Shown: piece after piece, positions 12,685 to 61,758 of the stretch
Layout of the letters: each line of letters begins with the position of its first letter
How positions within the stretch are numbered: the first letter of the stretch is position 1
Assembly: GCF_000526375.1 (NCBI RefSeq)
Contig: NZ_JAFY01000002.1
Coordinates: 1,054,001 to 1,118,000 of the forward strand
Reading direction: 5' to 3'
From: Aminiphilus circumscriptus DSM 16581
GTDB lineage: Bacteria > Synergistota > Synergistia > Synergistales > Aminiphilaceae
Length of the DNA: 64,000 nt
Position numbers and translations under genes: made by a program
The notes under the pieces: model-generated
Seen by the model: only the letters and a program-made list of their open reading frames with translations
Databases searched by the model: none
What the model was told of the DNA's origin: nothing

Positions 12685-12696
12685 GACGGTGAGCCT

Positions 12697-12842
12697 GTTC
12701 TCGGGGCGGGGTGCGAATCCCCACCGGCGGTATCCCGGCTGTGCCGGGGAGCCCGCGAGCGCTCCGTTCCTCTTCGGGGGAGCGGAGGTCAGCAGATCTG
12801 GTGCGATGCCAGAGCCGACGGTGACAGTCCGGACGAGAGAGA
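12697..12842 (+). promoter_or_regulatory. FMN riboswitch (RFN element)
   Basis: The conserved RFN blocks appear in order: TCGGGGCGGGGTGCGAATCC, CCACCGGCGGT, GAGCCCGCGAGCG, CAGATCTGGTGCGATGCCAG, then GCCGACGGTGACAGTCCGGA. A variable stem (CTCCGTTCCTCTTCGGGGGAG) fills the usual insertion. It binds flavin mononucleotide and shuts off the downstream riboflavin gene. No T-run terminator follows, so control is probably at translation (see the hairpin at 12908). Confidence 0.95.
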
Positions 12843-12907
12843 GCGAGCCCTCCGCATTCATTTCCCTGCGGCGTGCCCTGCCCGTTGCATTCCTCCCCCG
12901 ATTCAGG

Positions 12908-58221: not shown

Positions 58222-58546
58222 AGGACGCGCAACAAGATAGTGTCTATCAAAGGTGGGTAAGATCAGGGGCCCTTCACCATGTAGCCAGTACCGGGACGCC
58301 GGGCACACGCGGGATGTGCCGTATGAGGGTGGAGTCGTAAATCCTTCGCGGGCAGCACGGGACCGGGCGGGAGATGGTCTCTCCGGACGTGTTGCAACTC
58401 TGCCCGGAGCCGCCGTTTTTTCGCTTCCTTCAGGTCCGAGAAAATATCGCTCCTCATCGTCCGTAGAGAATGACGGATGGCATTTCCCCTGTCCCGTTTC
58501 AGGGATGACGTTCTCCCGGTTCCGTCACAAAAGGTTTTCCGGCCCG
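58222..58546. other. Intergenic region before the met operon
   Basis: About 325 bases with no recognised gene, repeat or RNA on either strand; probably the eroded end of the restriction locus. Confidence 0.4.
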
Positions 58547-58575
58547 TTGACAAAATCCAGGGGGCTCTCTATACT
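58547..58575 (+). promoter_or_regulatory. Consensus promoter of the metQNI leader
   Basis: TTGACA, 17 bases, TATACT: six of six and five of six consensus matches at ideal spacing, ending 23 bases before the SAM riboswitch. Confidence 0.9.
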
Positions 58576-58597
58576 ACCCGCAACAACTGAATAGGGA

Positions 58598-58703
58598 TCG
58601 ACGCATCCAGAGCGGTGGAGGGACAGGCCCTACGAAACCGCGGCAACCTTCGCGAAAGCGAAAAGGTGCCAATTCCTGCAGGATTTCCTGGAAGATGGTC
58701 GAG
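58598..58703 (+). promoter_or_regulatory. SAM-I (S-box) riboswitch
   Basis: The S-box blocks occur in order: CATCCAGAGCGGTGGAGGGA, CAGGCCCTACGAAACCGCGG, CAACC, AAGGTGCCAATTCCTGCA, and AAGATG. The closing P1 stem is TCGAC/CATC on the left and GATG/GTCGA on the right. With SAM bound it should allow the terminator at 58721 to form and stop transcription of metQNI. Confidence 0.95.
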
Positions 58704-58720
58704 GCGGTGTTGCCAATATG

Positions 58721-58756
58721 GTCTCTTCCTCGATTCCGGGGAAGAGACTTTTTTTG
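58721..58756 (+). terminator. SAM riboswitch terminator
   Basis: GTCTCTTCC / GGAAGAGAC with a 10-base loop followed by TTTTTTTG, 18 bases after the aptamer, so it is the riboswitch expression platform. Confidence 0.9.
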
Positions 58757-58815
58757 TGTTTGTGCGTTTTTTGTGCGTTCCCATGCGGCAGTTCAAGGGA
58801 AAGGAGGAGACCGAC

Positions 58816-58917
58816 ATGACCCGATGCTTCACGAAACGGTTCACGAACGGAATGATGTGCACCATGATGATGTGCGACGACGGCGGATCTCCTCCAGGAA
58901 GGACCGGCGGCTGCTGA
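58816..58917 (+). CDS. Met/Cys-rich leader peptide
   Basis: 33 codons with an ideal ribosome site (AAGGAGG, eight bases before the ATG). The centre reads NGMMCTMMMCDDGG: five Met and two Cys codons within eight. It ends 18 bases before a strong terminator and lies between the SAM riboswitch terminator and metQ. This is the architecture of a translation-coupled attenuator, where scarcity of charged Met-tRNA (and perhaps Cys-tRNA) stalls the ribosome and prevents the terminator. The peptide itself probably has no other role. That it is translated is inferred from the site and codon content. Confidence 0.65.
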   Translation: MTRCFTKRFTNGMMCTMMMCDDGGSPPGRTGGC

Positions 58918-58935
58918 TTCGTCGCTTTCCGGACT

Positions 58936-58969
58936 GGCCGGGATCCGCTTGGGATCCCGGCCTTTTTTT
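58936..58969 (+). terminator. Second terminator in the met leader (attenuator)
   Basis: Perfect 11-base-pair stem GGCCGGGATCC / GGATCCCGGCC with a 5-base loop and seven T. It is located 18 bases after the leader-peptide stop and 150 before metQ, so any transcript that passes the riboswitch must also pass here. Confidence 0.9.
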
Positions 58970-59122
58970 GTGCTCTGAAAGGGAGGTGGACGCTGGTGCG
59001 GTGACGGCAAAGGCGACGGGCGGCGCACTCGGAAGAAGCGCGGAGGAAAGGATCGCCGGGGCCGGAAGACACGGCCCGGCGGGGACGATGCGGACATCAC
59101 CGCAAGGGAGGAAGACGACATC

Positions 59123-59938
59123 ATGAGAACGAATGTGGTTGTGCGTGGAGCAGTGGCTGCGGTTGCGTTTGTGCTGTGCGTTGCGGCGGGGGGAACGCGC
59201 TCTTCGGCGGAGGAGCTGGAGAAGCTCCGGGTGGGCGCCACGGCGGGCCCCCACGCGGAGGTGCTGGAGTTCGTCCGGGAGGGGGCGCGGGCGCGGGGGA
59301 TCGATCTCAAGGTGGTGGAGTTCAGCGACTACATCGCGCCCAATGCGGCCCTCGACCAGGGGGATCTGGACGCCAACTCCTATCAGCATCAGTTCTTTCT
59401 GGACACGCAGAACAAGGACCGGGGCTATCACCTCGTGTCCATCGCCAAGACCGTGGTTTGCCCCCTCGGTTTCTACTCGAAGAGGATCAAGAACATTGCC
59501 GAGCTGAAGGACGGGGCCACCGTGGCGGTGCCCAACGACCCCGCCAATGTGGGGCGCGCCCTGGTGCTCCTTGAGCGGCAGGGGTTCATCAAACTTCAGG
59601 AGGGGTTGGGATACAGGGCGTCCGTGCTGGACATCGTGGCAAACCCCAAAAAGCTCAGGATCGTGGAGATCGAGGCACCCCAGCTTCCCCGCTCTCTGGA
59701 CGACGTGGATCTCGGGGCGGTGAACGTGAATTACGCCGTGGAGGCGGGGCTGTCGCCCATGACGGACGCGCTGCTGATCGAGGATCCCGCCACATCCCCC
59801 TTTGCGAATCTCATCGTGGTCCGGGAGGCGGACAAGGACCGGCCGGTCTTCCGGAAGCTCGTCGAGGCCTACCAGACGGAGGACGTGAAGCGGTTCATGC
59901 TGGAGCGCTTCAAGGGCGCCTTCGTTCCCGCATGGTAG
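59123..59938 (+). CDS. metQ: Methionine ABC transporter substrate-binding protein
   Basis: 271 residues of the NlpA/MetQ family. After a signal sequence (about 1-28), LRVGATAGPHAEVLEFV begins the mature fold, then VVEFSDYIAPNAALDQGDLD and ANSYQHQFFLD, all typical of MetQ. No lipobox is evident, so it is probably a free periplasmic protein. GGGAGG precedes the ATG. The SAM riboswitch upstream confirms a methionine role. metN follows after 127 bases. Confidence 0.93.
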   Translation: MRTNVVVRGAVAAVAFVLCVAAGGTRSSAEELEKLRVGATAGPHAEVLEFVREGARARGIDLKVVEFSDYIAPNAALDQGDLDANSYQHQFFLDTQNKDRGYHLVSIAKTVVCPLGFYSKRIKNIAELKDGATVAVPNDPANVGRALVLLERQGFIKLQEGLGYRASVLDIVANPKKLRIVEIEAPQLPRSLDDVDLGAVNVNYAVEAGLSPMTDALLIEDPATSPFANLIVVREADKDRPVFRKLVEAYQTEDVKRFMLERFKGAFVPAW

Positions 59939-60065: not shown

Positions 60066-61127
60066 GTGGCGATCTCCCTGCGCGGTCTGACCAAGGTCTA
60101 CGGCACCGGCACGGGGGCCGTGAAGGCCCTCGACGACATCACCCTGGAGATCCCGGACGGCGCGATCTTCGGGATCATCGGCCAGAGCGGGGCGGGAAAG
60201 AGCACGCTCATCCGCTGCGTCAATCTGCTGGAACGTCCGTCGGCGGGGACCGTGAAGGTGGGGGAGGTTGACTTCACCTCCCTCTCCGGAGATGCGCTGC
60301 GGCAGGCCCGGAAGAAGGTGGGCATGATCTTTCAGTCCTTCAATCTTCTGTCGCGTCGCACGGTCTTCGGCAATGTCGCCCTTCCCCTGGAACTGGCGGG
60401 GTGGCCGAAGGAGGACATCCGGTGCCGCGTGGCGGAGCTGCTCGCGCTCGTGGGGCTGGAGGAGCGGAGGGACCACTATCCCTCCCAGCTCTCGGGAGGG
60501 CAGAAGCAGCGGGTGGGCATCGCCCGGGCGCTGGCGAACAATCCGGAGGTGCTCCTCTCCGACGAGGCCACCTCCGCCCTCGACCCGGGAACAACCCGGT
60601 CCATTCTGGCGCTGCTTCGGGACATCAACGAAAAGCTGGGGCTCACGATCCTGCTCATCACCCACGAGATGCAGGTCGTCAAGGAGATCTGCCACGGTGT
60701 GGCGGTTCTCGAAAAGGGGCGGATCGTGGAGCAGGGGTCGGTGTTCGACATCTTCGCCGATCCGAAGGAGCGGGCTACCCGGGACATGCTGGGGCAGGAC
60801 CTCGACGCGGAGCTTCCCGAGTCCTTCGCGGGGCTCGATTTTTCCCGGGAGCCCCTTCCGGGGAGCGATCTCGTCCTCCGGCTCCGCTTCTTCGGCGACA
60901 TCGCCGCGGAGCCCGTCATGTGCGATCTGATCCGGCGGTTCGATCTGGACGTGAACATCCTCACCGCTCACATCGATCATCTGCGCAACATGCCCTACGG
61001 AACCCTGGTGATCGGTCTTTCCGGGGAGGAGCGACAGCGGCAGGCGGCGCTCAAGGCGCTGCGCGCGCTGGATCTCAGAGTGGAGGTGGCCGGCTATGTC
61101 GCAAAAGCTCTTCGCCGTGCTATGTAG
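60066..61127 (+). CDS. metN: Methionine ABC transporter ATP-binding protein
   Basis: 353 residues. GQSGAGKSTLIR (Walker A, about 39-50), LSGGQKQRVGIARAL and VLLSDEATSALDP are intact. The last 90 residues are the NIL domain (LRLRFFGDIAAEPVMCDLIR, HIDHLRNMPYGTLVI), which binds methionine and inhibits transport when the cell is replete. The GTG at 60066 has GGAGG eight bases upstream. It overlaps metI by 32 bases. Confidence 0.95.
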   Translation: MAISLRGLTKVYGTGTGAVKALDDITLEIPDGAIFGIIGQSGAGKSTLIRCVNLLERPSAGTVKVGEVDFTSLSGDALRQARKKVGMIFQSFNLLSRRTVFGNVALPLELAGWPKEDIRCRVAELLALVGLEERRDHYPSQLSGGQKQRVGIARALANNPEVLLSDEATSALDPGTTRSILALLRDINEKLGLTILLITHEMQVVKEICHGVAVLEKGRIVEQGSVFDIFADPKERATRDMLGQDLDAELPESFAGLDFSREPLPGSDLVLRLRFFGDIAAEPVMCDLIRRFDLDVNILTAHIDHLRNMPYGTLVIGLSGEERQRQAALKALRALDLRVEVAGYVAKALRRAM

Positions 61128-61758
61128 CTCGTTTGCGGATACCCTCTGCATGGTGGGTGTTTCCAGCGCCCTCGCCTTTCTCTTCGGGCTCCCTCTGGGG
61201 GTGGTGCTTCTGGTGACCGGAAAGGGGCACATTCTGGAGAACCGTGCGGTGAACGGACTTCTCGGGAGCATCGTCAACGCGGCGCGCTCCACGCCCTTCA
61301 TCATCCTTCTGGTGCTTCTTCTTCCCGTGACGAGGATGGTCGTGGGGACCACCATCGGCACCGTCGCGGCCATCGTGCCCCTGGCAATCGCGGCCACGCC
61401 CTTCGTGGGACGGGTCGTGGAGGGGGCGCTCCGCGAGGTGGACGGAGGGGTCATCGAAGCGGCCCTCGCCATGGGGGCCACGCCCTGGCAGGTCATCCGG
61501 AAGGTGCTGCTCCCCGAGGCGCTCCCCGCCATCGTGGGGGGGCTCACCCTCTCGGTGATCAACCTCATCGGCTATTCCGCCATGGCCGGAGCCATCGGCG
61601 GCGGCGGGCTGGGGGATCTCGCCATCCGCTACGGCTACCAGCGCTTCCGCCTCGACGTGATGCTCGTCACCGTGGCGGTTCTCATCGCTCTGGTGCACCT
61701 CTGTCAGGCCACGGGAGATCTGCTCGCCCGGCGCCTCCGCCGCGACGGAAAAAGCTGA
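61096..61758 (+). CDS. metI: Methionine ABC transporter permease
   Basis: 220 residues with about five membrane helices. The coupling loop is DGGVIEAALAMGATPWQVIR followed by VLLPEALPAIVGGLT, and SVINLIGYSAMAGAIGGGGL is the MetI signature. The ATG lies inside metN in another frame, giving translational coupling. It closes the met operon. Confidence 0.95.
   Translation: MSQKLFAVLCSSFADTLCMVGVSSALAFLFGLPLGVVLLVTGKGHILENRAVNGLLGSIVNAARSTPFIILLVLLLPVTRMVVGTTIGTVAAIVPLAIAATPFVGRVVEGALREVDGGVIEAALAMGATPWQVIRKVLLPEALPAIVGGLTLSVINLIGYSAMAGAIGGGGLGDLAIRYGYQRFRLDVMLVTVAVLIALVHLCQATGDLLARRLRRDGKS

Follow-up and report, generated by a model that had tools for sequence, protein, structure and literature searches.

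SAM-I riboswitches and leader attenuators are each a known kind of regulatory element, and amino-acid leader-peptide attenuators are familiar from trp, his and ilv. His-leader attenuators have been described in Firmicutes (PMC9413887). For methionine, a predicted Met-containing leader peptide (ending CMCRRMCAF), named metL, was found before metNIQ in Streptomyces lividans (PMC8079986). Stacked elements have also been described: a tandem SAM-I/AdoCbl arrangement forms a NOR gate before metE, for example in Bacillus clausii (PMC9481103), and a SAM riboswitch is combined with a T-box in Bacillota (PMC12452182). A survey of structured RNAs in which the Synergistetes species Thermovirga lienii is covered makes no mention, in the section consulted, of leaders of the kind described below (PMC6429828). 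In the open-access PMC literature, the only literature searched, we came across no description of a leader-peptide attenuator stacked with a riboswitch, and no precedent for a Met-rich leader peptide other than S. lividans metL.

The window analysed here is a stretch of 64 kb from Aminiphilus circumscriptus in which methionine transporter genes are preceded by a composite leader (Table 1). The sequence-only reading had described, in this order, a near-perfect promoter, a complete SAM-I aptamer with its own terminator, a 33-codon frame with an ideal ribosome site and a MMCTMMMC core, and a second terminator of 11 base pairs followed by seven T. All of these parts were recovered. Pfam also supported its placement of the leader before metQNI, with the nuance that the operon, directly downstream of the leader and terminator 2, runs metQ-metN-metI. 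We consider it very probable that metQNI is controlled by two transcription attenuators in series, SAM-I and then a ribosome-mediated Met/Cys leader, and that expression needs both low SAM and scarce charged Met/Cys-tRNA; no wet data are available for this arrangement.

Table 1. Features of the metQ leader and operon (positions in the window).
Feature	Position	Strand	Basis
Sigma-70-type promoter, TTGACA-N17-TATACT	58547..58575	+	11/12 consensus letters; 1 found vs 0.0 expected in shuffles
SAM-I (S box) riboswitch aptamer, complete	58600..58700	+	Rfam RF00162, 88.8 bits, E 8.9e-20
SAM-I antiterminator 5' strand (predicted), GGUCGAGG	58697..58704	+	fold of 58693-58740, -14.2 kcal/mol
Intrinsic terminator 1 (SAM-I expression platform), 13 bp + T-run	58720..58749	+	fold z -4.6
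Shine-Dalgarno (SD) site of leader frame, AAAGGAGGAG at 58800-58809	58800..58810	+	sequence; fold
Segment 1, GGAGGAGA, inside SD site, complementary to 58888-58895	58803..58810	+	fold
Leader peptide frame, MTRCFTKRFTNGMMCTMMMCDDGGSPPGRTGGC*, 33 codons + stop	58816..58917	+	ORF; Met/Cys-core homologues in relatives
Control codons Met-Met-Cys-Thr-Met-Met-Met-Cys (MMCTMMMC)	58852..58875	+	sequence
Segment 2, GGCGGATCTC at 58882-58891, TCTCCTCC at 58888-58895, CCAG at 58894-58897	58882..58897	+	fold
Small hairpin around leader stop codon, within antiterminator	58906..58926	+	fold
Intrinsic terminator 2, 11 bp (58936-58962) + T7	58936..58969	+	fold z -5.2
Terminator 2: 5' arm (segment 3), loop, 3' arm (segment 4)	58936..58946, 58947..58951, 58952..58962	+	
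metQ, methionine-binding lipoprotein	59123..59938	+	Pfam Lipoprotein_9, E 8.7e-91
metN, ATPase with NIL domain	60066..61127	+	Pfam ABC_tran+NIL
metI, permease	61096..61758	+	Pfam BPD_transp_1

The promoter is the sole promoter-like site within 58300-59300, and no internal promoter was found in the window between terminator 1 and the leader frame. Directly upstream of the promoter lies a RhuM-family gene (PF13310, 57127-58221). The RF00162 match exceeds the gathering score of 44.4, covers the full model length with the core pairs kept, and is the only one in the whole genome; an FMN riboswitch (RF00050, 93.5 bits) is present in the window at 12693-12848. In the predicted fold of the SAM-I expression platform, GGUCGAGG pairs with CCUCGAUU (58728-58735) and overlaps the 3' strand of the aptamer helix P1, so that P1 competes with the antiterminator and the antiterminator with terminator 1, as is asked of such a platform.

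The second half of the leader has what is expected of a leader attenuator, that is, a good SD with control codons of the pathway and an intrinsic terminator between frame and gene. A Met/Cys run of such density occurs once in the window and in none of 3000 leader shuffles. Our Rfam scans did not recognise the Met/Cys leaders. A T-box was also considered as the second sensor and dismissed, since no T-box match at the gathering threshold was found anywhere in the window.

To mimic a stalled ribosome, the RNA up to the Met/Cys codons was removed before folding. The window leader then forms an antiterminator in which 58882-58891 pairs with 58940-58949, and 58894-58897 with 58934-58937, around the small hairpin (-35.3 kcal/mol, z -2.8). 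The same fold was obtained in all nine first homologues, including that of family f4. Pairing of segment 2 with the terminator's 5' arm was seen in each of the 40 non-redundant loci tested, with a mean of 11.6 pairs vs 4.1 in shuffled RNA. The sequence-only reading would have been refuted had no other pairing been able to disrupt terminator 2; such a pairing is present and conserved. In the free RNA, the SD is the usual partner of segment 2 (in the window, 58803-58810 with 58888-58895) and terminator 2 forms, and the last Met-Cys codons (58869-58875) are also able to pair with segment 2 (58883-58889). A conserved antiterminator, exclusive with the terminator, which a ribosome standing at the control codons would free, is thereby predicted by folding, not by probing. 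Sequences drawn from L053 and L060 with faulty coordinates were excluded from the folding analysis.

We then looked at pairings exchanged between loci. Own pairs beat swapped ones for segment 2 with segment 3 (z -4.2) and for the SD with segment 2 (z -4.7, 39 loci), while the upstream-region control did not (z -1.2), the hairpin control scored weakly (z -2.5) and the terminator arms themselves reached z -15.9. As the loci are related, the swap and shuffle tests lack full independence. Compensatory changes among homologues were observed in the stem of terminator 2, and segment 2 is near-invariant at synonymous sites among close homologues. Taken alone, the stem between SD and segment 2 is unexceptional in the window (z -0.8). 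The antiterminator strand starts at a median of 15 nt past the last Met codon, and the leading edge of a ribosome waiting at a codon lies at about that distance; the fold began 9 nt after the last Met codon, so shorter distances were undetectable. Terminator 2 is very stable at equilibrium and antitermination must therefore be kinetic, as it is in trp attenuators. Our folding describes equilibrium, and attenuation is a kinetic process.

A search of related genomes for the same order had been proposed from the sequence, and it was found. Promoter, SAM-I, terminator, Met/Cys frame, terminator and met gene follow one another at 10 loci in nine Synergistota genomes of four families (f1, f3, f4 and f10). 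The gene is metQ in G000 (the window's genome), G001, G069, G066, G048, G023 and G015, metY in G082 and G187, and metX at a further G082 locus. The first T-run stands about 44-55 nt past the aptamer, and the SD, the Met run and the T-run terminator are kept in all 10. Nine of them have the same promoter type ahead of SAM-I, and G187 has a weaker -10-like hexamer. In the congener G001 the whole leader is conserved nearly letter for letter, with greater divergence downstream of terminator 2. In family f4 the peptide (MRLSDSNMMMCDMMCCLCGAPEGEYGG) and the RNA have clearly diverged, and all parts are still present. The small frame, whose absence from relatives would also have spoken against the sequence-only reading, is conserved: homologues with Met/Cys core and SD were found in six families (f1, f3, f4, f5, f6 and f10). 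Since SAM-I without a Met/Cys leader precedes metK and other genes in relatives, and the Met/Cys leader without SAM-I precedes metQ in f6 and in scanned f5 loci, the two are separable modules, and the leader is a self-standing one. Given its upkeep in distant relatives, the two-step arrangement looks, as far as sequence comparison can tell, like a real double lock and not a chance pattern.

To define the leader class, a covariance model was built from nine members and run over 188 Synergistota genomes, and the matches were inspected individually. The pattern GGATCTCCTCCNGG, tried as a finder over the 188 genomes, proved unspecific, with many matches within long frames. We obtained 59 Met-type leaders (with a Met run, typically MMMC), 55 of them directly before metQ, metN, metY or metX. 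Seven leaders have the same RNA cassette with other codons and none of these precedes a met gene. At two of the seven, the cassette carries Ile/Leu/Val runs and precedes ilvH; one of these leaders (VHETQAATVIRSSLALILLVVLILRCGSPPGALGRM) is in the window's own genome (L230, G000:C2:529772-529894, - strand). Codon type follows the pathway, as a sensor of charging predicts. We lean, only slightly, towards one cassette shared phylum-wide in Synergistota, with its own SD as segment 1 and a near-constant anti-Shine-Dalgarno coding stretch as segment 2, in which the pathway is set by swapping control codons (Met/Cys for met genes, Ile/Leu/Val for ilvH) and whose Met/Cys version, stacked behind SAM-I in several lineages, acts as a NOR gate with SAM and tRNA charging as its two inputs.

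Some leaders stand before other genes. L220 and L229, two of the four Met-type loci not directly before a met gene, have MMC-type leaders; the former is followed by a JAB-domain gene, and the latter has a ThiF-family gene at some distance downstream. These neighbours suggest sulfur metabolism, and the same control may extend to a cysteine or sulfur-transfer cluster. In G003, of the window's family, the gene behind a Met-type leader encodes a 429-aa protein with no Pfam match (L197:744-2033). In G010 (L240) a Tyr/Phe/Ile-rich leader (MAKNFNGLYVYSIYFIIFASCGSPPGLIGS) with the same cassette stands before a membrane-protein-like gene of no clear family. Short frames with MMMCCMM or MMMCRMM were seen in G094 and G107 (L092, L097) before a membrane-protein-like frame of ~466 aa, which is possibly another Met-controlled transporter.

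Beyond the phylum, 84,980 species genomes were scanned for MMCxMMMC by codons only, with ~0.5 random matches expected by base count. Short frames of this type were found before metN in Lachnospiraceae, Christensenellaceae and Eubacterium, and before metY in Ruminococcaceae and Chloroflexi. Each of these five loci has a stem and T-run ahead of the gene, and in four of them the stretch that follows the Met codons also folds back onto the terminator's 5' arm. L117 was left out of the antiterminator assessment (the wrong hairpin had been selected), and L116, L118, L119, L120 and L124 were set aside as not being before met genes. In L116 and L124, both from Chryseobacterium, frames ending CFDMMCMMMMC* are closely followed by a gene of at least 802 aa, which resembles outer-membrane receptors.

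Other explanations of the leader have to be weighed against these data. The frame has a good SD and a conserved peptide core, and MMC-type motifs can bind Cu(I); it could encode a small Met/Cys-rich peptide with a job of its own, such as copper or soft-metal binding, with the later hairpin merely its terminator. We find this scarcely credible: the N-terminus of the peptide varies freely and only the Met core is constant, the same RNA cassette carries Ile/Leu/Val in place of Met before ilvH, the terminator arm is tied to segment 2, and nearly all Met-type leaders lie directly before met genes. The strong conservation of the core would also fit arrest by the nascent peptide within the exit tunnel, with free Met, SAM or some other ligand as the signal in place of tRNA charging; TnaC responds to Trp in this manner, and runs of identical residues can slow ribosomes. 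Against such arrest, which we regard as very unlikely, no conserved residues occupy tunnel positions upstream of the Met run, the order within the core varies (MMCTMMMC, MFTMMMC, MIMCMMMR, MMMCDMMCC), and it is with the regulated pathway that the codon type changes.

It might also be that only the SAM-I switch matters and that the leader module behind it is only a relic, SAM-I alone being sufficient before metK in relatives. We judge this very unlikely, since no tandem locus has lost the SD, the Met run or the T-run terminator, G000 and G001 hardly differ in the frame, segment 2 and terminator but diverge more further downstream, and the module stands by itself at other loci.

For two attenuators in series, parts, conservation, pairings and order were computed, and the following mechanism is proposed from them. 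At high SAM, the SAM-I aptamer would close, P1 would take the antiterminator strand and terminator 1 would halt RNA polymerase. Transcripts past terminator 1 would meet a ribosome translating the Met/Cys frame. With charged Met- and Cys-tRNA present, this ribosome would reach the stop codon, and the SD (and the Met codons) would re-pair with segment 2, letting terminator 2 form. With the ribosome stalled at the Met/Cys run, segment 1 would be masked by stalled or queued ribosomes and segment 2, free just ahead of the stalled one, would pair with the 5' arm of terminator 2, and transcription would enter metQ. SAM binding, SAM-driven termination, translation of the frame, stalling, the directions of response, read-through under starvation and the combined gate are all inferred, the logic being read from anatomy. 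The sequence-only reading had called this an AND-type gate. Its two separate sensors are supported, and the wording needs to change: as each element is OFF on abundance, an AND of scarcities is a NOR of abundances (SAM; charged Met- or Cys-tRNA). Met is the initiator residue too, and Met starvation could also lower initiator fMet-tRNA and weaken loading on the leader.

If true, a metabolite riboswitch and a ribosome-based sensor would here be coupled within a single transcript as a natural RNA gate with two inputs. One input would report on the end product SAM and the other, separately, on the amino acid as translation uses it. The case suggests that Met, although it is the start residue, can serve as a control amino acid, and it would offer a practical signature by which leader attenuators could be sought in Synergistota and in other groups.

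Compared with known systems, the first element resembles SAM-I (RF00162) in its aptamer, in the overlap of P1, antiterminator and terminator, and in its met gene target, but behind its terminator the transcript carries a second attenuator, one that depends on translation. The tandem SAM-I/AdoCbl gate likewise places two serial OFF switches with NOR logic before one methionine gene; both of its inputs are riboswitches, whereas the second input here is based on ribosome and tRNA. With the SAM/T-box combination a single transcript would respond to both SAM and uncharged tRNA, as proposed here, but a T-box binds tRNA directly, while none is found in the window, where a translated leader would do the sensing. 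S. lividans metL shares a Met leader ahead of met transporter genes and differs in being leaderless, with no clear intrinsic terminator and no SAM-I reported and an unrelated sequence (PMC8079986). With leader-peptide attenuators in general, the window leader shares the short frame, the pathway control codons, the competing antiterminator and the intrinsic terminator. Unlike them, it reads Met plus Cys, its near-constant segment 2 (coding for -GSPPG-) is complementary to the frame's own SD, and the cassette is reused in Synergistota with Ile/Leu/Val codons.
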